From: Fibrobacteria bacterium
Lineage (GTDB): Bacteria > Fibrobacterota > Fibrobacteria > UBA11236
NCBI GenBank assembly: GCA_021155885.1
Contig: JAJNBB010000043.1
Span: 1 to 38,835, forward strand
Direction: 5' to 3'
DNA length: 38,835 bases
The notes below the pieces were generated by a model. The model did not search any database, was not told the DNA's origin, and saw only the letters and a list, made by a program, of their open reading frames with translations. Made by a program: the position numbers and the translations under genes. The stretch's first letter is position 1. Each line of letters begins with the position of its first letter. Of the stretch, positions 1 to 22,798 are shown in pieces.

Positions 1-219
1 GAGTGGCTGGGCCTCTTGCGCAAGGGCGGCGGCTTTCAGAGCCGGTTCAAGACGGCGCCGCTGCCGCGCGCGGGCCGCCGGGCGCTGCTGCGGAACGTGC
101 TGATCGCCCTGCGGAACACGGGAAAAGAACTGAGCCCGGAGTGGCGCAGGATTCTGGAAGCGGAAGAGGAAGATCCGGTGGTACGCGGAGAATTAGGAAT
201 GATGAAGGATGAAGGATGA
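1..219 (+). CDS. queG: QueG C-terminus (epoxyqueuosine reductase), 5' partial
   Basis: The frame is open from base 1 and ends at TGA 217-219, so only the last 72 residues are present. The segment EWLGLL..F..RF.TAPLPRAGRR followed by LLRNVLIAL matches the conserved C-terminal end of epoxyqueuosine reductase, the cobalamin- and iron-sulfur-dependent enzyme that makes the last step of queuosine in tRNA. In the family the LLRN..IALGN motif precedes HEAT-like repeats; here the protein stops about 30 residues later, so the C-terminus is short. The last residues (RGELGMMKDEG) are encoded by the 7-nt repeat that begins around base 190, suggesting the original end was overwritten. The iron-sulfur and cobalamin domains lie outside the window. 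Assignment rests on recognition of the C-terminal motif only. Confidence 0.7.
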   Translation, partial: EWLGLLRKGGGFQSRFKTAPLPRAGRRALLRNVLIALRNTGKELSPEWRRILEAEEEDPVVRGELGMMKDEG

Positions 220-272
220 ATCAGGAATGATGAGTGATGTGTTTTTTCATAATTCATCATTCCTGATTCATC
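215..272. repeat. Heptad-repeat inverted repeat 1 (queG / lipoprotein gap)
   Basis: A perfect 19-bp inverted repeat: arm 215-233 (core tgaatcaggaatgatga) pairs with 254-272 around a 20-nt T-rich loop. From base 195 the left side reads as 7-nt units of the type gaatgat, gaaggat, gaaggat, gaatcag, gaatgat. It lies between convergent genes, covers the queG stop and touches the stop codon of the minus-strand lipoprotein (TCA at 271-273). It could act as a two-way terminator, although no U-tract follows the stem on either strand. Confidence 0.8.
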
Positions 273-1110
273 ACTTTTCCCCAACTTCCTCCGTCTCGTC
301 CTTCGCTACTCCCGGCCTCCTGAGCTGCAGCTTCCCCGCCCTCGGCTTTTTCCCCAAGCTCACGAATTCATAGCGGATATCCAGCGGCCCGGCGCCGGCC
401 TCGGTGGGCAGCGGCGGGAATTTCTTCATCCGGCGCAAGGCCTTCGCCGCCTTTTCGTTGAAGGCCGGCCACGCGCTTTTCTCCAGCCAGGTCACGTCGG
501 TGATGCGGCCGTCGCCCTGCACCCGGATGCGCGCCACGCTTTTGTGGTCCACCGATCCCTTGCGCTTCGGCGGGATCCAATAGGTTTCCACGGAGGCGCG
601 CACGCGCAGCGACCACAGGCTCAGGCTGTTCCGGCGCGCCGCGGCCCAGGCCTGCGCCGAATCCTGCAGCCTCGCCTCGGCCTCGGCTTCCAGACGCCGC
701 TTGTCCTCCTTCGAAAGGCCCGAGGCGTCGATCGATTCGAGGTAGACGACGGTGCCCCCCTGGAACACGCGGATGGCTTGCAGCTTCCCGTCCTGCCGCC
801 AGGCCCGCAAGGTGTCGCGATGCACGCCCAGGCTGTCGCGGCCCTGGTACCACAGGTTGCCACCCGGGTACCACGCCTGATAGGCCCCGTGACGGAGGCC
901 ATGGACGTTTTGGGCCTGATAGCGGGCCTTGCCGTTGTCGAACCACCAGGTTTCGGGACCGTGCTTTTTTCCCGCGGAATCCACGGCGACATGATATTTC
1001 GGCACGCCCGAAGGGTACGATCCTTTCAGGACCGAAGGGGGTCGGGAGCAGGCGAAGAGAAACACGGCGAAGCCCGCCAGGAACGCCCGGCGCCAGGGGA
1101 TACGCGACAT
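271..1110 (-). CDS. Lipoprotein with MORN-like repeats and TonB-type C-terminal domain
   Basis: A 279-residue protein. The ATG at 1110 (MSRIPWRRAFLAG) is preferred over the longer ORF at 1170 because it gives a normal lipoprotein signal: basic N-terminus, hydrophobic stretch and a LFAC lipobox with Cys about residue 21. Residues about 45-115 hold MORN/YwqK-like repeats (KKHGPETWWFDNGKARY, GLRHGAYQAWYPGGNLWYQG), which are aromatic- and Gly-rich hairpins. Residues about 170-250 look like a TonB C-terminal domain (VARIRVQGDGRITDVTW, then FNEKAAKALRRMKKFPPLP). Such proteins sit in the envelope; the exact role is unknown. The skipped upstream stretch carries a palindrome, which also argues for the shorter start. 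Confidence 0.75.
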   Translation of the reverse strand: MSRIPWRRAFLAGFAVFLFACSRPPSVLKGSYPSGVPKYHVAVDSAGKKHGPETWWFDNGKARYQAQNVHGLRHGAYQAWYPGGNLWYQGRDSLGVHRDTLRAWRQDGKLQAIRVFQGGTVVYLESIDASGLSKEDKRRLEAEAEARLQDSAQAWAAARRNSLSLWSLRVRASVETYWIPPKRKGSVDHKSVARIRVQGDGRITDVTWLEKSAWPAFNEKAAKALRRMKKFPPLPTEAGAGPLDIRYEFVSLGKKPRAGKLQLRRPGVAKDETEEVGEK

Positions 1111-1139
1111 GATGCGAATGTAAAAACGATGGATCGTAG

Positions 1140-1160
1140 GGGCGCGTTTTAAACGCGCCC
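1140..1160. repeat. GTAGGGGCG-type palindrome, copy 1
   Basis: A 10-bp perfect inverted repeat (gggcgcgttt / aaacgcgccc) around one central base, preceded by gtag. It lies just upstream of the lipoprotein start. Its left edge gtaggggcg matches the palindrome at 6231, so the two appear to be one family with different centres. Confidence 0.75.
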
Positions 1161-1246
1161 TAAACATCATGTCGTTTCATATGCCGGGCGTGGGCGCGGT
1201 CCGAAGCGCCAGGGACACGGCGGCCGTGTAACCCAGGCGCCCCGCC

Positions 1247-1948
1247 CTAGTGGTAATTGCGCATGATCCCGATCACCCGTCCGAGCACGGAGAAATCGGT
1301 GATTTCCTTGCCGACGATGATGGGCCCGTAGGCGTCGTTGGCGGGCTGCAGGCGGACGTAATTGCCCTCGGGGTAGAAGTATTTGACGGTGGTTTCCTCG
1401 CCGAGCAGGGCCACCACGATCTGGCCGCGGTCGGCGTTGCTCTGCTGGCGCGCGAACAGCAGGTCTCCGTTCAGGATGCCGGCGTCCTTCATGCTGTCGC
1501 CCTGGACCTTGAGCGCGAAGACGTTTTCCTGGCGCATGAGGAAGTCGCGGTCGACCACCACGGTGCCTTCGAGGTTTTCGACGGCGAGAATCGGGGTGCC
1601 CGCGGCGACGCGGCCGAGGATGGGGACTTCGAGGGAATTGCTCCGGGAGTTTTCGAGGTCCCGCTCCATTTCGGGCAGGTCGATTCCGCGGGAGAGCTTG
1701 GGAGAGCGTTCGATATAGTTCTTCTTGGCCAGGGCGTGCAGGATGCTGCGGACACCGTTGGTCGAGGTGATGTTGAACCGCGTGCCGATCTCCCTCAGCG
1801 TGGGGGGGCGGTTCGATTCCTGGATGCGTTCCTTGATGAAGTTGAACACTTCCTGCTGGCGGGCCGTCAGGGGTTTCCTGTCCTGGCCGTGCAGGGAGGA
1901 GGATGAGGCCGATGCGGTTCGAGTCGAAGTGCCCGTTGAGAGTGCCAT
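1247..1948 (-). CDS. lexA: LexA, SOS-response repressor and self-cleaving protease
   Basis: A 233-residue LexA. The N-terminal winged helix starts near residue 27 ([25 protein letters not shown]). The S24 peptidase half has the cleavage site AAG (Ala116-Gly117), catalytic Ser152 in GDSMKDAGI and catalytic Lys189 in ETTVKYFYP; the Ser-Lys spacing of 37 equals that of E. coli LexA. About 25 extra Ser/Thr-rich residues precede the DNA-binding domain. The ATG at 1948 is chosen because GGAGG lies about 6 nt upstream and a sigma70-type promoter sits 33 nt further out. Role: represses DNA-damage genes until RecA filaments trigger cleavage. It is monocistronic here. Confidence 0.96.
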
Positions 1949-1980
1949 GGAAAACCTCCAAAAGGTGAAGTACTGGACTC

Positions 1981-2009
1981 AATATACTGCACATAAAGTC
2001 ATGTGTCAA
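1981..2009 (-). promoter_or_regulatory. lexA promoter
   Basis: Read on the minus strand: TTGACA (2009-2004), a 17-nt spacer, TATATT (1986-1981). This is a near-consensus sigma70-type promoter 33 bp upstream of the lexA ATG. The spacer contains most of a dyad, consistent with autorepression. Confidence 0.8.
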
Positions 2010-2021
2010 TAAGTTCAGTAT
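1984..2021. promoter_or_regulatory. Putative LexA operator in the lexA promoter
   Basis: The dyad CACAT-N6-ATGTG at 1990-2005 lies between and overlaps the -35 and -10 boxes. It is flanked by an outer inverted pair, atactg at 1984 and cagtat at 2016, and another tactg is at 1971. LexA operators differ between phyla; these dyads do not exactly match the E. coli CTG-N10-CAG spacing. Position, not sequence match, is the main argument. Confidence 0.55.
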
Positions 2022-2404
2022 CTTTATTTCTTGCAAACCGGGGGGGATTGAAGTAGTTTGTCCACCGATACTCTAGGACCTTCACGGATGTATTTCCGGG
2101 AGCCTTATTGGATCCGGTGTTTGACGATTTTCCGCCTTAGGCCTCCCCCCTCTCCTTTTACGACGGATCGGGACGGTTTTCCGGGCGGGCCGGCCGCTCT
2201 AACTTCTAAGTATGGGGCGCTTCCGGGATCCCAGTGATCCAATCCCCTTCCCCGCTTCCAAAATATCGAGTATTCGCCCCTCGCCCGGAATTTTTCCGCG
2301 TCCACGGGGAGGCTGGCAATCCAATCAGGACGCGTTAATCCGGCAAACGGGGCCGCCAAAGAAGCCGCCCCGCCGGAGTACATCGAACCCAGGAAACACT
2401 CCTC
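2022..2404. other. Intergenic region upstream of the Arg-rich membrane protein
   Basis: About 380 bp between the lexA promoter and the next plus-strand start. I see no tRNA, no convincing hairpin-plus-T terminator and no ORF with recognisable content; the ORF-track entry at 2212 looks like chance. Any promoter for the downstream gene should lie here, but I could not pick clear boxes. Confidence 0.5.
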
Positions 2405-3217
2405 ATGGTAACCTCTTATCTCCTCTTGGCCCTTTCGGCGGCAACGCTGGTCGTGGGCCTCTTCGTTCTCCTCCGCCTCAAAACCGTTCTTTACCTGCTT
2501 CAGCAGCCCGTCGTCAAGAAAATGTCCCCCCAGCTCCGCCTGAAACCCGTCAAACTGGATGAAGTCCTGAACCGTGGCAGCCGCGAAGGCGGCCGTCCCG
2601 AGGGCGGCGACCGCGGTCCCCGTCCGGAGCGCGGCGAACGCCGTGACGGCCGTGGCGAAGGCCGCCGCGAAGACCGTGCCCCGCGCGGTGAAGGCCGCGG
2701 CCCGCGTCCCGAAGGCGACCGTGGCCCGCGCCCTGAGCGCGGCGAACGTCGTGAAGGTGGCGAAGGCCGCCGCGAGGACCGTCCCCGCCGTGAGGGCGAC
2801 CGTCCCGACCGTGGCCCCCGCCCCGAGCGTAGCGAAGGGGATCGTGGTCCGCGTGAAGGCCGCGAAGGCGGCCGTGGCCGCGAAGACCGCCCGGAGCGCG
2901 CCGAAGGCGGACGTGAAGGTCGCCCCGAGGGCGACCGTGGTCCCCGCCGCGAGGACCGTCCGCGCCGCGAATTCAGCGAAACCCGCGACTTTGCCCCCGC
3001 CCAGGAAGCGGCTTCCGCCGAATCCGCCCCGCTTTCCCCCCGCCGCCCGCTGTTCGCGGACAACGCGGAACCCCGCTCCGAGATCGCGCCGGTTCGCGAG
3101 AATCCGGCTTCCGAGACCTTCGTCGGCAGCAGCAGCGATGACTTGCAGCACGGCCGCCGTCTCCAGCTGAAGAAGAAGCCCAAGTTCGACTTCGAGGAAG
3201 ACGCGACCGAGGCGTAA
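2405..3217 (+). CDS. Membrane-anchored protein with long RGE/RED/RGP-rich disordered segment
   Basis: 270 residues, family not recognised. Residues about 4-32 form one hydrophobic segment (SYLLLALSAATLVVGLFVLL), either a signal anchor or uncleaved signal. After a short Lys/Arg linker, residues about 58-190 are almost entirely R, G, E, D and P, in imperfect repeats such as GDRGPRPERGERR and EGRREDRPRREG. The last 80 residues are less biased and end acidic (FDFEEDATEA). The segment should be intrinsically disordered and polyampholytic; RG-rich stretches often bind nucleic acid, but that is inference. Two other frames are also open across the repeat, a side effect of the biased codons; this frame is supported by the hydrophobic start, AGGA upstream of ATG 2405 and a terminator just after the stop. 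Confidence 0.75.
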   Translation: MVTSYLLLALSAATLVVGLFVLLRLKTVLYLLQQPVVKKMSPQLRLKPVKLDEVLNRGSREGGRPEGGDRGPRPERGERRDGRGEGRREDRAPRGEGRGPRPEGDRGPRPERGERREGGEGRREDRPRREGDRPDRGPRPERSEGDRGPREGREGGRGREDRPERAEGGREGRPEGDRGPRREDRPRREFSETRDFAPAQEAASAESAPLSPRRPLFADNAEPRSEIAPVRENPASETFVGSSSDDLQHGRRLQLKKKPKFDFEEDATEA

Positions 3218-3240
3218 GCCCCCGGCTTACCGCGCTTTAG

Positions 3241-3270
3241 GCCTCCCGCTTCGCCGGGAGGCTTTTTTTT
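3241..3270 (+). terminator. Rho-independent terminator
   Basis: Stem gcctcccg / cgggaggc with loop cttcgc, followed by eight T residues, 23 bp after the stop of the Arg-rich protein gene. Confidence 0.93.
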
Positions 3271-3363
3271 GTGATTATTTCATAACTCCCCGTATTTTCA
3301 CATATTCCGGGGAAACCCCTGGCCTTTTTTCTACCTTGGCTTTCCTTGCTTATACCGGCCGAA

Positions 3364-3388
3364 GGCGCCGCCCGCTAGAGGGGGCGCC
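3364..3388 (+). other. GC-rich hairpin in the leader of the GH2-like gene
   Basis: ggcgcc at 3364 pairs with ggcgcc at 3383, with additional C/G pairing inside and a small loop (gctaga). No T-tract follows. It sits 33 nt before the ATG of the GH2-like gene and so could affect its mRNA leader. Function unknown. Confidence 0.35.
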
Positions 3389-3421
3389 GCCTGCAAATCA
3401 GGCCGTGCTCCGAGGAATTTC

Positions 3422-6172
3422 ATGGCCGACATTATCCGTTTTGAAGAGGGTTGGGAATTTTGCTTTGATCCCGCGAACGTGGGAGTCGCGGACCAATGGT
3501 TCCGGCTGAAGCCGGAGTCCACCCGCAAGGTGACCCTTCCCCACCTCTTTCTCCACGAATCCAATCCGGAGGGCGCCTCCGTCGGTTTTTATTTCAAGGA
3601 ATTTCCCCTCGAGAAAAAGGACGCGGTCAAGCGCTTCATGCTGCGCCTTCACTCCGCGCACCCGCACTTCACGGTCTGGCTGAACGGCGAGGAGCTGGGC
3701 TCGCGTTACTTCGGCCACGTCCCCTTCGACATGGACGGCGGCAAGGCCGTGCGCTACATCGATAACAACCTGCTGGTCGTGCGGGTGCAGACCTTGGACA
3801 AGCAGGGCAAGCTCGGCGACCTGGAAGCGCAGGAGCTTCCCCTGGGCAATCCGTTCCAGAAGGGCGCCTACGCGGGCTTGCTGGGTCCCGTGGAGCTGCA
3901 CACGGCGCAGAAGGCCATCGTGCGGTCCATCAACGTGCTGCCCGACTTCGAGGCCGACCGCGTGACTTTGGAGCTTCGCTTCTGGAACAGCAAGAGCTTC
4001 CAGACCGAGGCGGCGTTCGACATCACCAACCCCGAGGGCGAAACGGGGACCTTGATCAAGAACATCCGCCTCGACAAGGAGAACGGTTCCTACCTGTTGA
4101 GCCTGCAGCTCGAGGCCGGCAAGGTCTGGAGCCCTTCCACCCCCATCCTGTACGACCTGCAGGTGCGGATTCCCGGGAGTCCCTCGACCAAGGTGCGCTT
4201 CGGCATGCGCAGCGTCGAGGTCGACAAGGGCACCTTCCGCCTGAACCACGCCTCATTCAAGGTGCGCGGGGTTTCCTACCCCTGGTTCTTCAACTTCCAT
4301 CACGGTCTCCCGGCGTTCCCCGTCGACATCCGCAAGGAATTGCTGGAGATCAAGGACACGGGCTTCAACCTGATCCGCAGCAACGGGGCTCCCCTGCCGC
4401 CGCAAGTGCTGGACATTTGCGACGAGATCGGCCTGCTGGTCCTGCAGGAAACCACCGCCTACAACCAGAAATCGAGCAAGGACGGCGTCGACTGGGTCAA
4501 GGCCCAGTTGCAGGCCCTGGTCGAGCGCGACGGCCACCATCCCTGCGTCTTCGGCTGGGTGGTCGGCTCCAAGAACGGCTCGCTGGCCCTGGAGAACGGC
4601 AACAAGCTCCTGCGCTTCACCGCCGACCTCGATCCCACCCGCCCGGTGTTCTCGAACCTCGGGTCGGTGTACCTCGACAACCACGGCGGCGGCAAGGTCG
4701 ACCTCGGCAAGATCTACGAGCCCGTCTCGGCCCAGATCGTGCCCTTCGAAGGCCATAAGATCCGCCTGGGTTACCCCCTCGCGCCGCGCAGCTATTCCAT
4801 GGTCTCGAACTATTGCTCGTCCAAGGTCAGCAAGTCGGTGGCCGACGGCATCCACGGCAACCGGTCGTTCTGGGAACGCTACAGCTACCTCAAGGACCAG
4901 GTCGCCGGGAAAATCCTGGTGGACGGCCTGGGCGTGCCGGTGTTCGGCAACCCGAAGGACCTTCTCGAGGCCGCCAAGAAATTCTCCTCCTCGCAGGATT
5001 ACAAGGACCTGTCCAAGTTCCTGCAAGAGCTCGAGCAGGGCCTGAAGGACAAGGGGCTTACCTTCTGGAAGACTCCCGAGGCCTTCTTCGCCGACGCCGA
5101 CGCCCTGGGCCGCGCCTCCCTGTCGCGCCAGATCGAGTCGCTGTTCACCAACACGCAGATCTCGGGCTTCTTCATCGAAAACGGCATCGACCAGGGCTTG
5201 CGCTTCACGGGACTTTCCGATTGGCTGCGGCGCCCCAAGGCCGGGCTGCGCGAGAGCCTCAAGACCGTCAACCGTCCGGTGCACATCTTCGCCGAGGCCG
5301 AGGACCGCACGCCGTACGCCGGCAGCTCCGCGGCGGTGAAGGTGCACGTGTTCAACGAAGCGCACCTGGGCGACTACGCGGTGCAGTTCAAGGTCAAGGG
5401 CCAGAGCGGCCGCACCTTGCACCAGGAGTCGCTGACCGGCAAGGCGCGCCCCGGTTTCAACAACGTGGGTCGCCTGAAGTTCCCGGTGGGGCTCGAGCGC
5501 GGGCGCTTCACCTTCGAGCTCACGCTCACGCGCAACAACAAGGAACTGGCCCGCACCGAGGAAGTGTTCTTCGTGCCCGCCGAGGTCAAGCTCGACAACA
5601 TCCTGAAGAAGGTGTCGCTGCTGGGAACCTTCCCCGACGCGATCGCCTTCTCGACCATCGAGGACGCGCCCGTCACCATCGTGACCGGGCTGCACGAAGT
5701 GCCCGAGGCCGCGCTGAAAAAAGCCGTGGAACGCGCCTCCCAGGGCGGCACCTTGGTCTTCGGGGCGCTGACCGAGGAGGACGTGAAGAAGGTCAACGGG
5801 CTCAAGGCCCTCGGCCTCGACCTCGGCTGCATCCGCTCGGCGGGCGGACCGCAGGGCAATTACCACTATCTCAAGCAAAGCCCCGCGTTCAAGGATCTTC
5901 CCGCGCCCGGCCTGCTGGACCAGACCTTCGCCGAGGTGCAGCCGCTGTGGAGCCTGGACCACCTGCCCGAAAAGGCGGATGTGCACGCCGGGAGCCTGAA
6001 TTTCAACACCGTGCCCGGGGCCAAGGCCAAGATCCGCTGGGGAGCCGACCTGGCCGTGCTGCCCTTCGGCAAGGGCAAGCTCGTGTTCTGCCAGTTCGAT
6101 ATCTTCGAGCGCCTGGGCAAGAACGCGCTGGCCGACGCGCTGTTCGCGAACCTGGTGAAATTGGCCGGTTGA
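3422..6172 (+). CDS. Glycoside hydrolase family 2-like protein, probably catalytically altered
   Basis: 916 residues, no signal peptide, so probably cytoplasmic. Fold order resembles GH2 (beta-galactosidase/glucuronidase group): a jelly-roll sugar-binding-like domain (about 1-165, with FTVWLNGEELG), an Ig-like domain (about 165-275), then a TIM-barrel-like part opening with FKVRGVSYPWFF and IKDTGFNLIRSNGAPLP. In active GH2 enzymes the acid/base Glu sits in a W..GNE motif after a strand like HPCVFGW; here the equivalent reads FGWVVGSKNGS, without Asn-Glu. I cannot place a nucleophile Glu with confidence either. Extra C-terminal beta and alpha/beta-like regions follow. Start: GAGG lies just upstream of ATG 3422. 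It stands alone between two terminators. It may be a non-catalytic binding or structural relative, or an enzyme using other residues. Confidence 0.65.
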   Translation: MADIIRFEEGWEFCFDPANVGVADQWFRLKPESTRKVTLPHLFLHESNPEGASVGFYFKEFPLEKKDAVKRFMLRLHSAHPHFTVWLNGEELGSRYFGHVPFDMDGGKAVRYIDNNLLVVRVQTLDKQGKLGDLEAQELPLGNPFQKGAYAGLLGPVELHTAQKAIVRSINVLPDFEADRVTLELRFWNSKSFQTEAAFDITNPEGETGTLIKNIRLDKENGSYLLSLQLEAGKVWSPSTPILYDLQVRIPGSPSTKVRFGMRSVEVDKGTFRLNHASFKVRGVSYPWFFNFHHGLPAFPVDIRKELLEIKDTGFNLIRSNGAPLPPQVLDICDEIGLLVLQETTAYNQKSSKDGVDWVKAQLQALVERDGHHPCVFGWVVGSKNGSLALENGNKLLRFTADLDPTRPVFSNLGSVYLDNHGGGKVDLGKIYEPVSAQIVPFEGHKIRLGYPLAPRSYSMVSNYCSSKVSKSVADGIHGNRSFWERYSYLKDQVAGKILVDGLGVPVFGNPKDLLEAAKKFSSSQDYKDLSKFLQELEQGLKDKGLTFWKTPEAFFADADALGRASLSRQIESLFTNTQISGFFIENGIDQGLRFTGLSDWLRRPKAGLRESLKTVNRPVHIFAEAEDRTPYAGSSAAVKVHVFNEAHLGDYAVQFKVKGQSGRTLHQESLTGKARPGFNNVGRLKFPVGLERGRFTFELTLTRNNKELARTEEVFFVPAEVKLDNILKKVSLLGTFPDAIAFSTIEDAPVTIVTGLHEVPEAALKKAVERASQGGTLVFGALTEEDVKKVNGLKALGLDLGCIRSAGGPQGNYHYLKQSPAFKDLPAPGLLDQTFAEVQPLWSLDHLPEKADVHAGSLNFNTVPGAKAKIRWGADLAVLPFGKGKLVFCQFDIFERLGKNALADALFANLVKLAG

Positions 6173-6190
6173 AATAACCGGCCAACAACA

Positions 6191-6226
6191 AAAACCCCGG
6201 CCGTGGAAACGGTCGGGGTTTTTTGT
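6191..6226 (+). terminator. Rho-independent terminator of the GH2-like gene
   Basis: An 11-bp stem (accccggccgt / acggtcggggt, one G-U pair) with a ggaa tetraloop, followed by TTTTTTGTTT, 18 bp after the stop codon. Confidence 0.93.
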
Positions 6227-6230
6227 TTCG

Positions 6231-6258
6231 GTAGGGGCGAATAATTATTCGCCCCTAC
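6231..6258. repeat. GTAGGGGCG-type perfect palindrome, copy 2
   Basis: A perfect 28-bp palindrome running from gtaggggcga to tcgcccctac with an AT-rich centre. It follows the GH2 terminator and lies 26 bp from the end of the convergent cyclophilin gene. Its edge matches the palindrome at 1140. Confidence 0.9.
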
Positions 6259-6283
6259 GATTCACCAGGTTCGCGACCCGGTG

Positions 6284-6760
6284 TTAATCCACAATTTTCA
6301 CCGTGATCGACACGGGTTCCAGCGGGTTGTCGCGATGGTCGGTCTTTTCGGCCACGATCTTGTCGGCCACGTCCATGCCCGAGACGACCTTGCCGAAGGC
6401 CGTGTACTGGCCGTCGAGGTGCGGGGCGCTGGTGGTGACGATGAAGAACTGGGACGAAGCCGAATCCGGGTTCGACGAACGCGCGGCTGAAACGATCCCG
6501 CGTTCATGCTTGGTCTTGTTGAACTCGGCCTTGACGTTCTTGCCGGAGCCGCCGGTGCCGTGAAGCTGGCGGTCGTCCTGTTTGCTGTTCGGGTCGCCGC
6601 CCTGGATCATGAATCCCGGGATGACGCGATGGAAGCGGGTGCCGTCGTAAAAGCCGGACTTCGCCAGTTCGACGAAGTTCGCGACGTGGTTGGGGGCGAC
6701 TTCCGGAAGGAATTCGATAGTGATGTCGCCGTGGCGTGTGGAGAGAATGGCTTGTGTCAT
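6284..6760 (-). CDS. Cyclophilin-type peptidyl-prolyl cis-trans isomerase
   Basis: 158 residues, the length of compact bacterial cyclophilins. It catalyses cis-trans isomerisation of X-Pro bonds during folding. The signature FHRVIPGFMIQGGD, the later SASSQFFIVT and the Trp/His-loop region LDGQYTAFGKVVSGMDV are all present, including the active-site Arg in FHR. There is no signal peptide, so it is a cytoplasmic PpiB-like form. It is separated from rimI by 190 bp of hairpins, so it is probably transcribed independently. Confidence 0.95.
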   Translation of the reverse strand: MTQAILSTRHGDITIEFLPEVAPNHVANFVELAKSGFYDGTRFHRVIPGFMIQGGDPNSKQDDRQLHGTGGSGKNVKAEFNKTKHERGIVSAARSSNPDSASSQFFIVTTSAPHLDGQYTAFGKVVSGMDVADKIVAEKTDHRDNPLEPVSITVKIVD

Positions 6761-6949: not shown

Positions 6950-6950
6950 C

Positions 6951-8020: not shown

Positions 8021-9085
8021 TCAACGCGGGGTCGAAAGACTTTGTTCGATCACCTTCGTGACCAGATCCCGATACGATAGCCCTGCGTGCGCCGCCTGCT
8101 GCGGCAGCAGGGAGGTCGGCGTGAAGCCGGGCAGGTTGTTCGTCTCCAGCGCGAACAGCTCGTCCTTATCGGGGACCCAGATGAAGTCCGTGCGGCTGTA
8201 CACCGAAAGACGCAGGGCCTGGTGGGCCTGCCGGGCGAACTTCTGGATCCGTTCGATCACCGCGGGCGGGAACTCGGCGGGCGTGATCTCCTCCGCCCCG
8301 CCCTTCGCGTATTTCTCCTCGAAGGAGAAAAAGGCGTCCTTGCGGGGGCGGATCTCGGTGGGAGACAGGGCCGTGGCGAATCCCTCGAGAACCCCGCAGC
8401 TCGACTCGCGTCCCGCGACGAAGGCCTCGGCCAGCAGACGCGGCGTTTCCTTCCCGATCTCCGCCAGGGCCGCGATCAGCGCTTCGCGGGTGCGCGCCAC
8501 GGCCACCCCGATGCTGGAGCCCCCGGTGGGATGCTTCACGACGGCGGGCAGGCCGATTTCCTTTTCGACGCGGTCCGCGGCCGCGGCGACCTCGCGCTGA
8601 GTCCACTCCGCCGTGTCCAGCACGACCCACTTCGCCGTGGGGATCCCGTGAAGGGCGTACAATTGCTTCGACAGGATCTTGTCCATCGCCAGGGCCGAAC
8701 CCAGGCCGCCGCTTCCAGTGAAGGGTTGCCCGGCCATCTCCAGGAAACCCTGCAGGCGTCCGTCTTCCCCGCCGACCCCGTGCAGGCCGATGAAGTACGC
8801 GTCGGCGGACGGCAATGCGTTGAACCGGGGGAAGCGCGCGCGGGCCCAGGTCACGGGCGGGTCCTTCAGGATTTCCGCGGCCATGGCCGCGTCCCAGCCG
8901 CCGGGTGGGATCCATTTCCCGTCGATGGCGGCGGCGGGCCACATCCATTCATTGTCCCGCGAAATCAGGACGGGAAAACCCTGGAAGAGCTTCGGGTCGA
9001 GCTGGGCGAGAATGCCGCAGCCCGAAGCGAGGGAGACGGGATGTTCGGGGGAGATCCCCCCCATGAGAACGGCGACGCGCTGCAT
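8021..9085 (-). CDS. ddl: D-alanine--D-alanine ligase
   Basis: 354 residues. An ATP-grasp enzyme that joins two D-Ala for peptidoglycan. Visible: N-terminal VAVLMGGISPEHPVSLASG, ATP-binding loop HPTGGSSIGV, metal- and substrate-binding end ALETNNLPGFTPTSLLPQQA. The usual E.N..PG form is present as ETNNLPG. It starts 15 bp after the small ORF at 9101 and is followed by tsaB. No second cell-wall gene lies nearby. Confidence 0.95.
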   Translation of the reverse strand: MQRVAVLMGGISPEHPVSLASGCGILAQLDPKLFQGFPVLISRDNEWMWPAAAIDGKWIPPGGWDAAMAAEILKDPPVTWARARFPRFNALPSADAYFIGLHGVGGEDGRLQGFLEMAGQPFTGSGGLGSALAMDKILSKQLYALHGIPTAKWVVLDTAEWTQREVAAAADRVEKEIGLPAVVKHPTGGSSIGVAVARTREALIAALAEIGKETPRLLAEAFVAGRESSCGVLEGFATALSPTEIRPRKDAFFSFEEKYAKGGAEEITPAEFPPAVIERIQKFARQAHQALRLSVYSRTDFIWVPDKDELFALETNNLPGFTPTSLLPQQAAHAGLSYRDLVTKVIEQSLSTPR

Positions 9086-9329: not shown

Positions 9330-9430
9330 GTTGTTGGTTGTTAGTTCTTAGTTGTCAGGAAAAAAAGAAACAAGGCCCTTCCAGGAAGGAAATGCGCCAT
9401 TCCAACAACCAACAACTAAGAACCAACAAC
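9330..9430. repeat. Heptad-repeat inverted repeat 2 (galE / small ORF gap)
   Basis: Left arm 9330-9355 and right arm 9405-9430 are about 23/26 complementary. Both read as 7-nt units (ggttgtt, agttctt, agttgtt). A ccttcc-a-ggaagg hairpin lies in the 49-nt loop. The element sits between two minus-strand genes. Its right arm encodes the last residues of GalE (KVVGS) and contains the galE stop codon. Confidence 0.8.
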
Positions 9431-10408
9431 CTTGCGTTCGTTCGCCTGATAAGCCTTCCACGTGGTTTCCAACAACGTGTCCAGGTCGCTGTACCGGGCT
9501 TTCCAGCCCAGGAGTTCGGCGGCCCGGCCCGCGGAGGCAAGCACCACGGCCGGATCGCCCGGGCGACGCGCGACCACTTCGCTGGGAATGGCGCGGCCCG
9601 TGATCGCGCGCGCGCGCTCGATCAGTTCCAGGACGGTGACCCCTTCCCCGGTTCCCAGGTTCACGATGAAATCCTCACCGCCGCCGTGCAAGCGCTCCAG
9701 GGCGAGTACATGGGCCGCGGCAAGGTCGGTGACGTGCACGTAGTCCCGCAGGCCGGTGCCGTCGCGCGTCTCGTAATCGTCGCCGAAAACCTGCACCTTG
9801 GGACGCCAGCCCATGGCGGCTTCCATCACGATGGGAAGAAGGTTGGCGGGGTTTTGCTCGAGCCCGGTGATCTCGCCCTCGGGATCATATCCCGCCGCGT
9901 TGAAGTAGCGCAGGACCCCATGCTTCAGGCCCTTGAGCCGGCCGTACCATTCGAGGAACCCTTCGATGACGAGCTTGGTGTGGCCGTAATAGTTTTCGGG
10001 CCGGGTCGGATGCCGCTCATCGATGGGCACGTAATCCGGCAAGCCGTAAACGGCGGCCGAGGAAGAGAACACGAAGCGCGGGATTCCCGCCTCCACCACC
10101 GCCTCAAGAAGGTTCAGGGAACCGGTGATGTTGTGGCGGCTGTATTTTTCCGGAGCCGTCATGCTTTCGCCCGCGGCCTTGAGGGCGGCGAGGTGAATGA
10201 CTCCGTCGAAACGGTGGGCGGCTGCGGCGGCCCGCAAGGAGGAGACATCGAGGATATCCCCGAACTGGAATTCGGTGCCGGGCGCCAGGTTTTCGCGAAG
10301 GCCCGTCGACAGATTATCGAAAACCACAGCCTCATGCCCGGCCAGACGCAAGGCCTTGCATACGTGCGAACCGATATAGCCGGCTCCGCCGACAACCCAG
10401 ACTTTCAC
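9416..10408 (-). CDS. galE: UDP-glucose 4-epimerase
   Basis: 330 residues, extended short-chain dehydrogenase. It interconverts UDP-glucose and UDP-galactose for envelope sugars. NAD-binding GGAGYIGSH is at residues 7-15, FDNLSTG follows, the catalytic Ser/Tyr/Lys are in SSSAAVYG and YYGHTK, and LRYFNAAGYDPEGEIG-like and GTGLRDYVHVTDLA motifs are typical of GalE. The C-terminal KVVGS is encoded by a repeat arm, so the natural end may have been slightly different. A divergent thioredoxin-like gene lies across a 228-bp gap. Confidence 0.94.
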   Translation of the reverse strand: MKVWVVGGAGYIGSHVCKALRLAGHEAVVFDNLSTGLRENLAPGTEFQFGDILDVSSLRAAAAAHRFDGVIHLAALKAAGESMTAPEKYSRHNITGSLNLLEAVVEAGIPRFVFSSSAAVYGLPDYVPIDERHPTRPENYYGHTKLVIEGFLEWYGRLKGLKHGVLRYFNAAGYDPEGEITGLEQNPANLLPIVMEAAMGWRPKVQVFGDDYETRDGTGLRDYVHVTDLAAAHVLALERLHGGGEDFIVNLGTGEGVTVLELIERARAITGRAIPSEVVARRPGDPAVVLASAGRAAELLGWKARYSDLDTLLETTWKAYQANERKVVGS

Positions 10409-10444
10409 GGAGTCTCCAGAAAAAAAGAGGAATATAGAACAGGT

Positions 10445-10579
10445 GGGCAGGCGTCGGGCGGCAGGCGGCGAACTACCGGTCCAATGCCTGCCATCCCCCC
10501 TCGTACCAGGCTCGTTCCGCGGCCTTTCCTTTCGTTTTTTCCTGCCGCCCGCAGCCTGCCGTCCCCGTTCCCTGCCTAC
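10445..10579. repeat. Heptad-repeat inverted repeat 3 (galE / thioredoxin gap)
   Basis: Left arm from 10445 (ggcaggc, gtcgggc, ggcaggc) pairs with the right arm ending at 10579, about 18/20 over the core (cctgccgcccgcagcctgcc on the plus strand). Units are again 7 nt. It fills most of the divergent gap between galE and the thioredoxin-like gene, so it cannot be a simple terminator for either. Confidence 0.7.
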
Positions 10580-16326: not shown

Positions 16327-17073
16327 ATGGCCTCCGCGTTCTTCATCTCCGACCTGCACCTCGGCACGCGCTATGGCGCGGCGGACCGGGGACGCGAGGC
16401 CCGGTTCGAGGAATGGATCCGGAGCCTGACCGGCCGCGCCAGCCACCTCTTTCTGCTGGGCGACATCTTCGAGTTCTGGATGGAATACCGGCACTACGTT
16501 CCCAAGCACCATATGGGCGTGCTGTCGGCCCTGTACGAACTCCGCCGCTCCGGGGTGGAAATCCGTTACGTTGGCGGCAACCACGATTTCAATCTGGGCA
16601 CGTTCTTCCGGGACTCCCTGGGGATCATTACCCACAACGGTCCCTTCGAGGTCACTTTGCAGGGAAAGCGCCTGCTCCTGCTGCACGGGGACGGGCTGAA
16701 TCCCAAGGATTGGAAATACCGCCTCGTCCGCAAGGTACTGCACCATCCCCTGTCGAACTGGGCCTACAAACTCCTGCACCCCGATCTCGGCATGAAGATC
16801 GCGCTGGGAGTCGGCAAGACTTCCCGCGACCAGGAAACACCCGAAAACTACATCGGCAACGACCCCGTCCGTCTCGCGCAGTATGAGGAGGAGGCCCGTT
16901 CGCTCCTGAGGCAAGGCTACGACATCGTCATGCACGGCCACATTCACGTCGGCTTCATCAAGCCGCTCCCCGAGGGCGTCTACGTCAACACGGGCGAGTG
17001 GCTCCAGCGGCTGGAATACGTGGAAATGAGCGATGGGGTCTGTACGCTGCGGACGTACGAAGCGAACAGCTGA
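16327..17073 (+). CDS. lpxH: UDP-2,3-diacylglucosamine diphosphatase-like phosphoesterase
   Basis: 248 residues, calcineurin-like metallophosphoesterase. The metal-ligand motifs are all present in order: SDLHLG (Asp9, His11), LLGDIFEFW, GGNHDFN, HGDG and MHGHIHVG. The GDIFEFW sequence is typical of LpxH, which removes UMP from UDP-diacylglucosamine to make lipid X in lipid A biosynthesis. The related LpxH2/YbbF-like group cannot be excluded. The final residues and TGA fall in a heptad-repeat arm. Confidence 0.85.
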   Translation: MASAFFISDLHLGTRYGAADRGREARFEEWIRSLTGRASHLFLLGDIFEFWMEYRHYVPKHHMGVLSALYELRRSGVEIRYVGGNHDFNLGTFFRDSLGIITHNGPFEVTLQGKRLLLLHGDGLNPKDWKYRLVRKVLHHPLSNWAYKLLHPDLGMKIALGVGKTSRDQETPENYIGNDPVRLAQYEEEARSLLRQGYDIVMHGHIHVGFIKPLPEGVYVNTGEWLQRLEYVEMSDGVCTLRTYEANS

Positions 17074-17149
17074 CAGCCTACAGCGGACAGCCGAACGCAA
17101 TCCGCCGGTACCGGTCCGACCCTAAGCTGTTCTCTGTGCGCTGTCCGCT
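17068..17149. repeat. Heptad-repeat inverted repeat 4 (lpxH / unknown gene gap)
   Basis: Left arm 17068-17092 (agctgac, agcctac, agcggac, agcc) and right arm 17125-17149 match at 20 of 25 positions. Units of 7 nt are clear on both arms. A ccggtaccgg palindrome lies in the loop. The element bridges two convergent genes; it contains the lpxH stop and ends 2 bp from the opposite stop. Confidence 0.8.
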
Positions 17150-17151
17150 AG

Positions 17152-18027: not shown

Positions 18028-18118
18028 GACAGCAAAGTAGAAACTACGCGCACGGCCGTTTTGCGTCGTGCGCCGGCGAACCGTTTGAAAATGAAGCGGC
18101 GCGCACGCGCGCCGGCGA

Positions 18119-19139
18119 TCAACGGCCGGGACTGATGCTGGGGCGCCAGCGCGGATTTTTCGAGGACATGTCCACCGAATAGAAATTGCGCTCGAACGGG
18201 GCCGCGTTCTTGCCCAGGTGCTGGAGCAAAAAGCGCGCGATCCACTTCTCGATCGTGCGGGTTCGCCTCGCGGAGCAGCCGGCAGCATTCCACCACGGTG
18301 GAACCCGTGCGCACCATGTCGTCGAGGATGATGACGTCCTTGCCGGCGATCTGGTCCAAAGTGATGTCGGACTTCGCGCCCACCGCCATGCGCACCTGGC
18401 GCTCGCCCACGCGCGACTTCTCCATGACGAGGCACGACGCGCGGGACAGCGAAAGCGACTCGCGCACCTGGTTCACGAAGGGCAGGGCGCCCATGTCGGG
18501 GGCGCAGAGCACGAGGTTGTCGCCGTCCTTGCCGGTCACGACCATGTCCGAGTACTTCAGGTAATCGGCATAGACCTCGTTGGGGATGAGGTTGTAGAAC
18601 TCGCCCCCGAAGGCGCGGCCGAAAAGCTTCTGCACCTTGGAACTGTGGTTGTGCACGGTGATCACGGCGTCGACGCCGGCGTGCTTCAGGAGCTCGGCGT
18701 ACAGCTTGGCGGTGAAGGGCTGGCCGTCGAACTTCTTCAGGTCCTCGACCGAGCGGTTCTCCTCGTCCTCGCCGCGGTGGGGGCCCCGGTCCTGCGCGGA
18801 GAAGAACAGGTCCGGCTCGACCAGGATGACCTTCTTCGCCCCGTTGTCCTTCGCGCCGCGCGCCAGCATCAGCGTGCGCATGGCGAGCGATCCGCGGCTG
18901 TCGTTGGTCGCGGCGGAGCAGATCACCACCGTCTTGCCCTCGAGCGAGCGCCCGATGACGTCCATGTTCCCCTCGTCGCTGATGTAGCGCGGGCAGAACT
19001 CGGTGTTGGCGTAGATCTTCAGCGAGATGAGGTCGGCGATCTCCTCGGTTTGACCGCACATGTGGGCGAGGTCGATGGCGAAAGGATCATCGGAAACGTT
19101 GGAAACGATGAGGGTATCGTTCATGGCGTGATTTTTCAT
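18119..19139 (-). pseudogene. PRPP synthetase-like gene with frameshift and missing segment
   Basis: The N-terminal 285 or so residues are ribose-phosphate pyrophosphokinase-like: SAQDRGP, FTAKLYAELLKHAGVDAVITVHNHS and the PRPP loop VIILDDMVRTGSTVVECC. After RLLREANP the frame carries nonsense. The other frame from about base 18257 reads TIEKWIARFLLQHLG and VDMSSKNPRWRP, a sensible C-terminus ending at TGA 18119-18121. The strand usually between these blocks (in relatives the H.......TNTIP region, about 40 residues) is absent, so this is an internal deletion plus frameshift, or an assembly error. Start ATG 19139 is preferred: GGAG lies 4 nt upstream and ATGA overlaps the glgP stop. ATG 19124 is an alternative. 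Confidence 0.75.
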
Positions 19140-21658
19140 TCTTCTCCGGCGCGCGCGATCGGGATCGAGGGCGTCTTCCACACGTCGTTGCGGTATTCTT
19201 CGATGGTCCTGTCGGAGGAAAACATACCCATGCGCGCGAGATTCAGCACGGCCTTTCGCGTCCAGGCGTCGGAATCCCGGTAAAGGTCCGAAACCCGGCC
19301 CTGGGCGGCCGCGTAATCGGCGAAATCCGCGAAAAGCATGTATTCATCGTGATGCTCCAGGCCGTCCAGGAAGGGACGGAACAGGCCCGGCTCGTCCGGC
19401 GAGAAGTAACCGGAGCGGAACAGGTCGATCACCGCCTTGAGGGCCGGGTCCTGGGCGAGGACCAGCGCCGGGTTGTACCCGGAGGCCTTGCGGTTGCGCA
19501 CTTCCTCGGCGGTCATCCCGAACAGGAAGAAGTTCTCCTCCCCCACCTGCTCCCGGATCTCGATGTTCGCCCCGTCCAGGGTGCCGATGGTCAGCGCCCC
19601 GTTGATCGCGAACTTCATGTTGCCCGTGCCGCTCGCCTCGGTGCCGGCGGTGGAGATCTGCTCCGAAAGGTCGCTGGCCGGGAAAATTTTCTCCGCCAGC
19701 GAGACCCGGTAGTCCTCCAGGAACACCACCTTGATCAGGTCGCGCGAATCCGGGTCGGCGTTCACCACCGAGGCCACCGAATTGATCATCTTGATGATGA
19801 GCTTGGCGGTCATGTAGCCGGGGGCCGCCTTGCCGCCGAACACGAAGGTGCGCGGCACCATGCCCTTGCCGTTGCCGCTCTTGATCTGGTTGTACAAGTG
19901 GACGATGTGCAGGGCGTTCAGGGCCTGCCGCTTGTATTCGTGGATGCGCTTGATCTGCACGTCGAACATCGACTCGGGATCGACCTCGATGTCCTGGGTG
20001 AAGCGGATCCAGTCCGCCAGCTTTCCCTTGTTGTGACGCTTGATGTCCCTCCAGCGCGACAGGAATTCGGCGTCGTCGGCGAACTTCTCCAGCTCGCGGA
20101 TGCGCCCGAAGTCCTTCACCCAACCGCCGCCGATCTTCTCGGTGATGAGGGAGGACAGCCCCGGGTTGGCCTTGTACAGCCAGCGGCGCGGGGTGACGCC
20201 GTTGGTCTTGTTGTGGAACTTCTCCGGCGTCATGTCGTTGAAGTCCTTGAGCACCTGCGACCTCAGCAACTCGGTGTGCAGCGCGGCCACGCCGTTCACG
20301 GCGTGCGACCCCACCACGGCCAGGTAGGCCATGCGGATCTGGCGGTCGCCCGATTCGTCGATCAGGGACATCCGCTTCAGGCGCTCCGCGTCGCCGGGGT
20401 ACTTCCAGGAGACCTGCTTTAGGAAGCGGTAGTTGATCTCGTAGATGATCTGCAGGTGGCGCGGCAGCAGCCGTCCCAGCAAGTCGACGCCCCACTTTTC
20501 GAGGGCCTCGGGCAGCAAGGTGTGGTTGGTATAGGCGAAGACCCGCGTGGTGATGTCCCAGGCGTGCTCCCACGACATCTCCTCGATGTCGACCAGCAGG
20601 CGCATCAGCTCCGGGATCGAAATCGCCGGGTGGGTGTCGTTCAGCTGGATGGCCGCCTTCTCGGCGAGCTCGCTGCAGTCCTTGTGGAACTTCTTGTGGC
20701 GGCGCAGGATGTCGGACAAAGTGGCCGCGCACATGAAGTACTGCTGCTTGAGGCGCAGCTCCTTGCCGTTCATCGAATTGTCGTTCGGGTACAGCACCTT
20801 CGAGATGCTCTCCGACAGCGAAATGTCCTTGCTCGCCTCGACGTAGTCGCCGCTGTTGAAGTAATGCAGGCCGAACTCGTCGGAGGACTTCGCCGACCAC
20901 AGGCGCAGGGTGTTCACCGTCTCGTTGCCGTAGCCCGGGATCGGCGTGTCGTAGGGGCAGGCCAGCACCGTCTCGGTATCGACCCACTCGAACACCGTCA
21001 CGCCCTGGGCGTTCTTGCGCGAGGATACCCGGCCCTTGAAGTGGATCGGCACCGTGTATTCGGGGCGCGCGATCTCCCAGGGGTTCGGCAACCGCAGCCA
21101 GTTGTCGGGATGCTCGTGCTGGTACCCGTCGCGGATCTTCTGGTGGAACATCCCGTAGTCATAACGGATGCCGTAACCGTAGGCGGGCAGTTCCAGCGTC
21201 GCCATCGAGTCGAGGAAGCAAGCGGCCAGCCGGCCCAGGCCGCCGTTGCCGAGACCGGCCTCCAGTTCCTGGCTGCGCAGCTCCGCGAGGTCCATGCCGA
21301 GATCGTACATCGCCGAACGCGCCGACTCGGCGATGCCGAGGTTGATCAGCGCGTTGCCCAGCGAGCGGCCCATCAGGAATTCCATCGAGATGTAGTAGAT
21401 GCGCCGCGCGTCCTGCAGATAATACGTCTGCTGCGTGCGGATCCAGCGCGAGATCAGCTGGTTGCGGGCGGCGAAGCTCAGCGCCAGGTACTTGTCGTAC
21501 GGGGTCGCCGAATATTTGTCCTTGCCGAGGGTGAACCGCAGATGCTCGAAGAAGGCTTCCTGGATGACCTCCTTGCCGTGCCGCGCCTCATCGGCCTTGG
21601 CGGAGGCCGCGGCTTCATGAGGAACCGCGCGTGTCTTGGATTTAGCGGATGGTGCCAT
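19136..21658 (-). CDS. glgP: Glycogen/maltodextrin phosphorylase
   Basis: 840 residues, full family length. It releases glucose-1-phosphate from alpha-1,4-glucans using pyridoxal phosphate. Landmarks: EAGLGNGGLGRLAACFLDS, GYGIRYDYGMF, QLNDTHPAISIPELMR, KTNGVTPRRWL, QIKRIHEYKRQ and the PLP site EASGTGNMKFAINGALTIGT (Lys near residue 682). The first 25 residues are a basic, Ala-rich extension. A strong GGGGAG ribosome-binding site precedes ATG 21658. Its TGA overlaps the PRPP synthetase-like ATG, so these two are coupled. Confidence 0.97.
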   Translation of the reverse strand: MAPSAKSKTRAVPHEAAASAKADEARHGKEVIQEAFFEHLRFTLGKDKYSATPYDKYLALSFAARNQLISRWIRTQQTYYLQDARRIYYISMEFLMGRSLGNALINLGIAESARSAMYDLGMDLAELRSQELEAGLGNGGLGRLAACFLDSMATLELPAYGYGIRYDYGMFHQKIRDGYQHEHPDNWLRLPNPWEIARPEYTVPIHFKGRVSSRKNAQGVTVFEWVDTETVLACPYDTPIPGYGNETVNTLRLWSAKSSDEFGLHYFNSGDYVEASKDISLSESISKVLYPNDNSMNGKELRLKQQYFMCAATLSDILRRHKKFHKDCSELAEKAAIQLNDTHPAISIPELMRLLVDIEEMSWEHAWDITTRVFAYTNHTLLPEALEKWGVDLLGRLLPRHLQIIYEINYRFLKQVSWKYPGDAERLKRMSLIDESGDRQIRMAYLAVVGSHAVNGVAALHTELLRSQVLKDFNDMTPEKFHNKTNGVTPRRWLYKANPGLSSLITEKIGGGWVKDFGRIRELEKFADDAEFLSRWRDIKRHNKGKLADWIRFTQDIEVDPESMFDVQIKRIHEYKRQALNALHIVHLYNQIKSGNGKGMVPRTFVFGGKAAPGYMTAKLIIKMINSVASVVNADPDSRDLIKVVFLEDYRVSLAEKIFPASDLSEQISTAGTEASGTGNMKFAINGALTIGTLDGANIEIREQVGEENFFLFGMTAEEVRNRKASGYNPALVLAQDPALKAVIDLFRSGYFSPDEPGLFRPFLDGLEHHDEYMLFADFADYAAAQGRVSDLYRDSDAWTRKAVLNLARMGMFSSDRTIEEYRNDVWKTPSIPIARAGEE

Positions 21659-21983
21659 TAGAATCTCCCCCTCTGATAGCGACGCGCTGAACCAAGCATA
21701 GCAATTTCGGATTTTGGCTGATTCCCCCTTTTGTCCGGATTCTACAAGAATGCCGGGGCGCCGTCATCACACGTTCCGTACGGTCAATGGCGCCGCTTCC
21801 TTGTAAATTTTGTCATAAAATGGAAACAGGAGTTGGGGGTTGGGGGTTTGGGGGTTCGGAGTTGGGCGCTTGATACAGAGCCACGAGAAACATTTTCGTC
21901 GCATATCGGCATCCAGAAAAAGTCGGCGGCGTTTTGTCTTTTCCCCCAACCCCCAACCGCCAACTCCAGGCTATCTTAGCCCC
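21659..21983. other. Divergent intergenic region glgP / methyltransferase
   Basis: 325 bp. It should hold promoters for both genes, but I found no convincing -35/-10 pair. Over 40% of it is the heptad element at 21829-21967; the remainder near glgP is AT-richer. Confidence 0.5.
21829..21967. repeat. Heptad-repeat inverted repeat 5 (divergent gap)
   Basis: Left arm 21829-21854 (ggagttg, ggggttg, ggggttt, gggg) and right arm 21943-21967 are about 23/25 complementary, separated by an 88-nt loop. Units are 7 nt. G-runs make the left arm a possible G-quadruplex former. The right arm ends 16 bp from the methyltransferase GTG, so it would form part of that gene's leader. Confidence 0.8.
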
Positions 21984-22736
21984 GTGCTTTCCCCCGAATC
22001 CCACCTGCGGCAACAAGGCCTGACGCCCCTGGCCTGGGATGAAATCCTGACCCTCGTCGAGCAGAAATTGACGCCGACGGAATCGCAAACCTTCCAGCGG
22101 CTGCACCGCGCCTTCGCCGCCTATCCCGCGGCGCACACCGTGCGGGCCTTTTACGACTTCGCCGCGCAGCGGGATCTTCTCGCGCTATTGGCCGGCTTTC
22201 GCTTCGAGCGGCTGGTCGATCTCGCCGGCGCCCTGTCGACGCAAGCCCTCGCGGGCCGGCGCGCCCTCGACTACGGGGCCGGCGGCGGGTACCTGGCGGC
22301 CTACCTCCGCGCCGCGGGCGCCGAGGTGACCGTCGCCGACTTTTCCCCGGCCACGCTCCGCCGCCTCGAGACTCTCGGCTACCCGGTGGTCGCCGGGGAG
22401 GTCCCGCCCGCCCCGGACTTCGACCTCATCCTGTGCGCCGACAGTCTCGGCGAAGTCAACGCCGACGAAGACGACTGGCTCGCCGCCCCCGAAAACCTCG
22501 GGGACCCGAACTATCCCGGAGAACTGAACGCCCGCTACGGCTTCGCCGAAAAGCTGGCGCCCCTGAAATCCCGGCTCGCGGCGAATGGCTTCGTCCTTCT
22601 GTTCGAACCCGTCCGGCACGCTCATTTCTGGCAGGGCGCCGCGCGCGCGCTCGAAGGCGCGGGATGGAAGGCGGAGGTTTTGACCGCGCCGGTGCTGGGG
22701 TTGAAATTACGGACGGGGGACGGGGGACGGGAGTAA
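21984..22736 (+). CDS. SAM-dependent methyltransferase-like protein
   Basis: 250 residues from GTG 21984; the track ORF starts 48 codons earlier inside the inverted repeat, giving low-complexity Pro/Gly sequence, so the later start is chosen. Class I methyltransferase motif I appears as RALDYGAGGGYLAAYLRAAGAEVTVADFSPATL, with an acidic end of strand 2 and motif IV-like FDLILCADSLGEV. An N-terminal helical region of about 90 residues precedes it. Substrate unknown. The C-terminal LRTGDGGRE is encoded by the next repeat element. Confidence 0.75.
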   Translation: MLSPESHLRQQGLTPLAWDEILTLVEQKLTPTESQTFQRLHRAFAAYPAAHTVRAFYDFAAQRDLLALLAGFRFERLVDLAGALSTQALAGRRALDYGAGGGYLAAYLRAAGAEVTVADFSPATLRRLETLGYPVVAGEVPPAPDFDLILCADSLGEVNADEDDWLAAPENLGDPNYPGELNARYGFAEKLAPLKSRLAANGFVLLFEPVRHAHFWQGAARALEGAGWKAEVLTAPVLGLKLRTGDGGRE

Positions 22737-22798
22737 AGACGAAACTAATATGTTTCGGTTTTTGAGTTCCCCCCGTCCCCCTACCCCCATCCCCCGTC
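22712..22798. repeat. Heptad-repeat inverted repeat 6 (methyltransferase / peroxiredoxin gap)
   Basis: Left arm is three gacgggg-type units (22712-22731); right arm 22769-22798 holds four (reverse complement gacgggg, gatgggg, gtagggg, gacgggg). Inside is a perfect cgaaac-taatat-gtttcg hairpin (22740-22757). The left arm supplies the last methyltransferase codons and abuts its stop. It lies between two tandem plus-strand genes. Confidence 0.8.

Follow-up and report, generated by a model that had tools for sequence, protein, structure and literature searches.

What are the six long inverted repeats, with arms built from tandem 7-nt words, that occupy intergenic gaps in contig JAJNBB010000043.1 of a Fibrobacteria bacterium (assembly GCA_021155885.1)? 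We analyzed the whole 38,835-nt stretch, hereafter the window, together with DNA from the same genome, its relatives, plasmids, and viral contigs. We consider it probable that all six belong, as gene-less members, to a class of mobile elements whose ends are inverted tandem arrays of a 7-nt word. The full-length form of this class carries a single gene, coding for an S23/PF05635 (TIGR02436) four-helix-bundle protein of the family of the open reading frame (ORF) found in 23S rRNA intervening sequences.

The six hairpins belong to a large population. In the 1.02 Mb read (~40%) of the 2.59-Mb Fibrobacterota metagenome-assembled genome (G000; 87.5% complete), maximal-scoring segments at lag 7 numbered 164, against 1 to 4 at lags 4, 5, 8, 10, 11, and 13; the 22 to 29 segments at lags 6, 9, and 12 come from codon periodicity. 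Stricter windows yielded 28 period-7 segments, and none in a third-order Markov null. Thus, the genome-wide excess of 7-periodic inverted repeats on which an earlier, sequence-only reading of the window had staked its case is present by both measures. At threshold 10, an inverted partner lay within 250 nt for 151 of 180 segments, compared with 15 at random places and 7 direct partners. Merging gave 93 paired elements, with a median arm of 26 nt and a median loop of 50 nt, and such hairpins in this bacterium number well over a hundred.

The arms share words and orientation. About a dozen word families recur (GGTTGTT, GGGGGTT, AATGATG, ACGGGGG, AGTTGGG, GGGTCGG, ACTCGGT, ACAGCGG, AGGTAAG, AGGCGGC, and ACTTAGG), as does AGCGGAC. 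The claim that the word differs at every locus is therefore true within the window but not genome-wide, where GGTTGTT alone makes up 46 of the 151 paired arms. No word family contained an arm in reverse orientation, and G outnumbered C in the 5′ arm of 90 elements out of 93 and was outnumbered in none (0/93). Polarity is strict: the C-poor word reads inward from both ends. On the 5′ side, the sequence immediately inside the arm is poor in T, and the loops contain AACACAA/TTGTGTT 11 times where 0.6 are expected (8 versus 0.7 in the same-genus species G001). AACACAA borders the inner end of 5′ arms and TTGTGTT precedes 3′ arms, an enrichment of ~10- to 20-fold in both genomes despite their differing words. 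Apart from a few short repeats, loops have no match among themselves or elsewhere in the 1.02 Mb, and we therefore rejected the idea that they are moved cargo. One loop (L022:5617-5777) holds two copies of a hairpin, GGATCCCCGCCTGCGCGGGGATG, that resembles a repetitive extragenic palindromic (REP) sequence and recurs at many loci of this genome.

The lead to S23 came from a Nostoc plasmid, on which a "four helix bundle" gene lies exactly between opposed TAATTCG arrays. A PF05635 search found four such genes in each of G000 and G001 and none in G002 or G003. G000 and G001 are both rich in elements, and the same-genus G002 has no array in 200 kb. All five S23 genes within the G000 and G001 DNA that was read are enclosed by heptamer arms. 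For the fourth G000 gene, located outside the DNA that had been read, enclosure was predicted beforehand, and GGTTGTT arrays were found at C25:42737-42765 and 43305-43319, so that four of four S23/PF05635 genes of this genome lie between inverted heptamer arrays. We also scanned G000 and G001 (1.9 Mb) for opposed arrays of the same word, in the standard polarity and 250 to 700 nt apart. Ten pairs were listed; the only single intact elements among them were the five around S23 genes, and inspection resolved the other five into unmatched words, low-complexity GC sequence, or neighboring elements. Within a genome, the arm words of S23 copies are those of gene-less copies; the word of the sixth window element, for example, also flanks the S23 gene at G000:C4:1481-1795. 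The encoded proteins match TIGR02436 above the cut-off, the accessory protein Avd of diversity-generating retroelements (DGRs) weakly, and the S23-fold structures 2gsc and 2rld. Arm lengths can differ strongly: at L012:1835-1931, one arm of an S23 element comprises 12 near-perfect units of GTCCCCC, against ~4 in its partner.

The same arrangement was found far beyond this genus. Twenty plasmid S23 genes were chosen from tblastn lists before their flanks had been seen, from cyanobacteria, Spirochaetota, Chloroflexota, Bacteroidota, Bacillota, Alphaproteobacteria, and Gemmatimonadota. Period-7 arrays stood on both sides of 16 and on one side of 2, with 0 to 1 of 20 at other lags; control values for arrays on both sides were 2 of 2,000 random intervals and 0 of 55 neighboring genes. 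On viral contigs, a strict test of 40 distinct S23 loci gave arrays on both sides for 24 at lag 7 and for 0 to 1 at other lags. The C-poor polarity was kept in 31 of 36 informative S23 cases, and the heptamer-armed S23 form was seen in at least seven bacterial phyla. Two loci have flanks of another kind: a Gemmatirosa S23 gene (L283) with arrays of period 8, not 7, and a Nostoc gene (L265) within a perfect 40-nt inverted repeat that has no clear 7-nt period. Heptamer-armed S23 genes also lie within cas operons, two of them separating cas2 from cas1 and one separating cas6 from cas4 (L268, L269, and L277). A CRISPR-discovery paper includes 23S rRNA IVP among its domains (PMC10910872), a listing that may reflect insertion rather than function.

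For one S23 element, presence and absence are clean, with a short target duplication. The element of T. variabilis plasmid C is absent from N. linckia plasmid 2 (98.6% identity) and from five other plasmids; all matches are 97.7 to 98.6% identical and have the same length of 1,093 bp. The empty site in N. linckia reads AAAAAGTAATTAACAAATAA, and the filled site in T. variabilis reads AAAAAGTAAT, ~428 bp, and then GTAATTAACAAATAA. GTAAT is duplicated (GTAATTAA if one mismatch is allowed), and the duplication spans the stop codon of the gene upstream. In the Scytonema copy of this element, the array is shorter by exactly 14 bp, i.e., two heptamers, and Nostoc C052 retains a decayed remnant at the T. 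variabilis insertion site. Within the Fibrobacterota family of our genome, L163 has a heptamer-armed S23 element in a gap that in L102 and L103 measures 25 to 43 bp and is array-free. Nostoc UHCC 0870 has an empty site, a gap of 2 nt, for the cas1-S23-cas2 arrangement, the cas1 end being too diverged for a target duplication to be read. Gene-less copies with the arms of S23 copies are suggested on Nostoc plasmids by two short ordered matches 170 to 265 nt apart, versus 413 to 462 nt in the S23 copies (coordinates only).

Within the window, inverted arms were confirmed at all six places, and the RNA hairpin formed by each element was more stable than the folds of dinucleotide-shuffled sequences (z, −3.0 to −6.8). 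Base identity at lag 7 was 0.71 to 0.93 in nearly all arms; the period of 7 that had been ascribed to every locus is weakest at 10445-10579 (0.65 and 0.56). The first element, said to start at 215, is larger than had been proposed, its 5′ array beginning at 190. All six lie between protein-coding genes, as called by our own home-made annotation of window and genome; the window contains no rRNA, and no Rfam family matched anywhere in it. The loops are 8 to 89 nt long and carry no S23/PF05635 ORF. The parts are as follows.

190-240, forward strand: element 1, 5′ arm, GAATGAT/GGATGAA heptamer array (lag-7 identity, 0.77; pairs with 246-272).
246-272, reverse strand: element 1, 3′ arm (TTCATCATTC...; lag-7 identity, 0.75; 92% complementary to 215-239).
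9330-9355, forward strand: element 2, 5′ arm, GTTGTTG array (lag-7 identity, 0.84; inverted-repeat score, 19.4).
9356-9404, no strand: element 2, loop of unique sequence, with an A-run adjoining the 5′ arm.
9405-9430, reverse strand: element 2, 3′ arm (lag-7 identity, 0.79), including the stop codon of the minus-strand gene called at 9416-10408.
10444-10470, forward strand: element 3, 5′ arm, GGCAGGC array (lag-7 identity, 0.65), the most degenerate of the six.
10541-10579, reverse strand: element 3, 3′ arm (lag-7 identity, 0.56; 90% complementary over 20 nt).
17066-17094, forward strand: element 4, 5′ arm, AGCGGAC/ACAGCGG array (from lag-7 identity and fold).
17126-17149, reverse strand: element 4, 3′ arm, in a convergent gap; by alignment, the array is absent in three same-genus relatives.
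21829-21866, forward strand: element 5, 5′ arm, GGGGGTT array (lag-7 identity, 0.78).
21943-21967, reverse strand: element 5, 3′ arm (92% complementary).
22711-22731, forward strand: element 6, 5′ arm, GGACGGG array (lag-7 identity, 0.93), overlapping the final codons of the 21984-22736 gene call.
22737-22771, forward strand: element 6, loop, a small hairpin followed by TTTTT, terminator-like (from sequence and fold).
22772-22798, reverse strand: element 6, 3′ arm (from inverted-repeat and lag-7 analysis).

Element 2 lies in a gap of 105 nt that measures 14 nt in a same-genus orthologue. Outside the 3′ arm of element 3, alignment with three relatives revealed a conserved promoter-like sequence, TTGTATCTTAT. 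The word family of element 5 has 14 exact 15-mer matches genome-wide, and 46 with one mismatch. Two further palindromes were noted in the window. A perfect 18-bp hairpin with a 3-nt loop at 23446-23484, CGAAAAAGGCCTTCATCC, resembles an ordinary bidirectional terminator. The palindromic repeat GTAGGGGCGAATAATTATTCGCCCCTAC occurs at 6229-6258 and also at L053 (~8083-8112) and L100 (~4332-4361); it is shared without change by two loci of this genome and by G002, in intergenic DNA that is otherwise diverged, and is a second dispersed palindrome, unrelated to the heptamer elements.

Comparison with G001 bears on whether the hairpins moved in or grew in place. This species has 55 elements in 880 kb, with the polarity seen in G000 and a largely different set of words (AAATGAG, GGTAGAC, GAAATATG, and AGTGGAT). 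Among 121 orthologous gaps, an element was present in 27 in G000, in 13 in G001, and in 7 in both, versus 2.9 expected (P = 0.009, gap length not being corrected for). In these seven, arm identity was 0.90 within a locus, 0.55 between species in the same gap, and 0.47 for random arm pairs. As a description, the earlier statement that the arms are kept alike as the word drifts is thus supported. Such values are also what one would expect if old terminator hairpins near gene ends had gained 7-nt duplications by replication slippage and if quasi-palindrome template switching had copied changes between arms, with no mobile element involved. The exact 14-bp difference in array length speaks for this account too, as do the plain terminator hairpins found in the other species at some orthologous gaps. 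However, about half of the gaps occupied in one species only exceed their counterparts in length by roughly one whole element; in the clearest cases, the counterpart measures 2 to 28 nt. Word families are common to unrelated loci and keep a strict polarity, the same arms enclose S23 genes, the S23 copy has an exact empty site, and growth in place leaves the period of 7 unexplained. We judge it unlikely. A pure repair or copying artifact at each locus, as the sequence-only reading had envisaged, is not the best account either, because word families are shared, the S23 form has an exact present/absent site, and the same arms surround S23 in many phyla.

A role in RNA would give the hairpins a reason to be kept: as bidirectional gene-end devices for termination, RNase III processing, or 3′-end protection, they could vary their word freely provided that pairing was maintained. 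Their strong folds, the terminator-like hairpins and T-runs in several loops, the under-use of divergent gaps (2/54 versus 92/407 in G001), and the shared occupancy of gaps in both species would fit. Nevertheless, the hairpins are patchy and, being absent from 200 kb of a same-genus genome, are not needed; they occur in operons and divergent gaps as well, and selection of this kind explains neither the period of 7 nor the link to S23. We find it rather improbable as the origin of the elements, and such a role could be a secondary effect of a mobile element. Very little likelihood attaches to elements of the REP or bacterial interspersed mosaic element (BIME) kind moved by a Y1 (REP-associated tyrosine, RAYT) transposase, or to retro-elements moved by reverse transcriptase. 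Neither Y1_Tnp (PF01797) nor RVT_1 (PF00078) had a match in G000 or G001 (98% complete), so these two families were rejected as movers in both element-rich genomes, and there is no common REP core, despite a REP-like copy number, intergenic position, and hairpin form and despite the kinship of S23 with Avd. Plain simple-sequence repeats, or G-quadruplex repeats of the short tandemly repeated repetitive (STRR) or GGGNATC type, share the unit length, and some words here are G-rich with four G-runs. That pairing should be incidental is nonetheless hard to credit when 151 of 180 arrays are paired, and polarity and S23 enclosure would be left unexplained. The GGTTGTT, AATGATG, and ACTCGGT families, among many words, have no G-triplets, and thus lack the four that define quadruplex-forming GGGNATC repeats. 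To our knowledge, neither integron attC sites nor retron msDNA contains heptamer arrays, and both were set aside on that ground.

Several observations weigh against the mobile-element reading itself. No gene-less copy has yielded a direct insertion polymorphism, because the nearest sequenced species is only ~68% identical in protein. No mover was found, the two families named above being those searched for, and we know of no catalytic activity in S23. A Fibrobacter genome, G021, has arrays (42/Mb) and no S23 gene, and we accordingly rejected a strict genome-level link between the two. The loops of gene-less copies are related neither to each other nor to S23, and these copies are therefore not simple internal deletions; a search for S23 remnants at E = 1e-4 found none in any loop. 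Finally, elements occupy most of their gap, and their closeness to stop codons is explained by this gap filling in G001 and is weakly in excess in G000. Targeting of stop codons was rejected on this basis, although the single exactly resolved insertion falls on a stop codon.

If the hairpins are mobile elements, gene-less copies would move or spread by the same route as S23 copies: the S23 protein would act on their hairpin arms in trans, and host enzymes would perform the cutting and synthesis. Array length would change by 7-nt slippage, and the hairpin would allow one arm to be corrected against the other, so that the arms could remain similar through changes of the word. When transcribed, the stem is probably a substrate of RNase III, by the Coxiella precedent, and such processing would make insertions at gene ends tolerable.

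We tentatively extend this reading, with somewhat less conviction than doubt, to S23 genes across bacteria. They might be the sole gene of a new class of mobile elements without a transposase, the ends of which may be any C-poor 7-nt word, tandem and mirrored, and would be defined by a machine working in 7-nt steps rather than by the word. Scattered heptamer repeats (STRR, GGGNATC, and those of this genome) would be gene-less offspring, and the intervening sequences of 23S rRNA would represent the small number of copies inserted into rRNA. If true, this would unite as one element four oddities that have been described separately, namely the STRRs of cyanobacteria, the heptamer pairs of Xanthomonas, 23S rRNA intervening sequences, and orphan "four helix bundle" genes, give a role to a large uncharacterized protein family related to Avd, and make S23 genes in cas and restriction operons insertions instead of functional partners. 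It also raises the question of how a 7-nt period and mirrored ends are kept while the end sequence changes freely.

How do the elements compare with known systems? Our searches, which covered the open literature and not the subscription literature with the classic intervening-sequence and STRR papers, found no statement of a general link between heptamer arrays and S23 genes, and neither PMC4990558 nor PMC4692102 makes one. The STRR comparison made by the sequence-only reading was a good lead. The heptanucleotides of Nostocales resemble the present elements in unit length, intergenic position, and variety of words, and period-7 arrays do occur on Nostocales plasmids; in the 250 kb examined, they were mostly single, with 3 paired elements among 12 arrays. 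Their hosts are heterocystous cyanobacteria, whereas the host here is placed in Fibrobacterota by its nearest named relatives, Fibrobacteres metagenome-assembled genomes. The TAACTGA repeats of Beggiatoaceae are likewise heptamer arrays beside genes (PMC4679880) but consist of one word in direct repeats, most of them lying immediately 5′ of start codons.

Miniature inverted-repeat transposable elements (MITEs) and REP/BIME sequences are, like the elements here, short gene-less inverted repeats in many copies (93 in 1.02 Mb). In MITE families, the end sequences are fixed and the parent bears a transposase, whereas the ends of our elements have in common the period, the polarity, and (in any one genome) the words, and their larger relative carries S23, not a known transposase. 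Target duplication and insertion polymorphism, further traits of MITEs, were observed for the S23-carrying relative; for gene-less copies, there was no close strain for the comparison. REPs have a Y1 transposase, unlike these elements, given the lack of PF01797 matches in G000 and G001.

The layout, which could not be matched to a named element from the sequence alone, is not wholly without precedent. In Xanthomonas, GGGAATC heptamer arrays form convergent pairs (70 in Xcc and 75 in Xac; PMC4692102) that, like ours, are inverted, with the G-rich strand inward, mostly intergenic, and rare in divergent gaps. They comprise one word family, were read as G-quadruplex repeats, and were not linked to S23, in contrast to the many words here, several of them incapable of quadruplexes; X. 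campestris has an S23-family protein of its own, Xcc0516 (2gsc). The 23S rRNA intervening sequence of Coxiella, termed a selfish element, has a 28-bp terminal stem, an S23 ORF, and GACAGAT heptamers at its 5′ end, in 2 to 3 units depending on the strain, and is excised by RNase III (PMC4990558). S23p intervening sequences of the Coxiella burnetii/Leptospira type thus share with the window elements a terminal inverted-repeat stem with tandem heptamers in the stem region. They sit in helix 9, 25, or 45 of 23S rRNA and, in full-length copies, carry the S23 ORF, whereas the six window copies are intergenic, ORF-less, and varied in word; the S23 ORF that these copies lack is present in their four siblings in the same genome.

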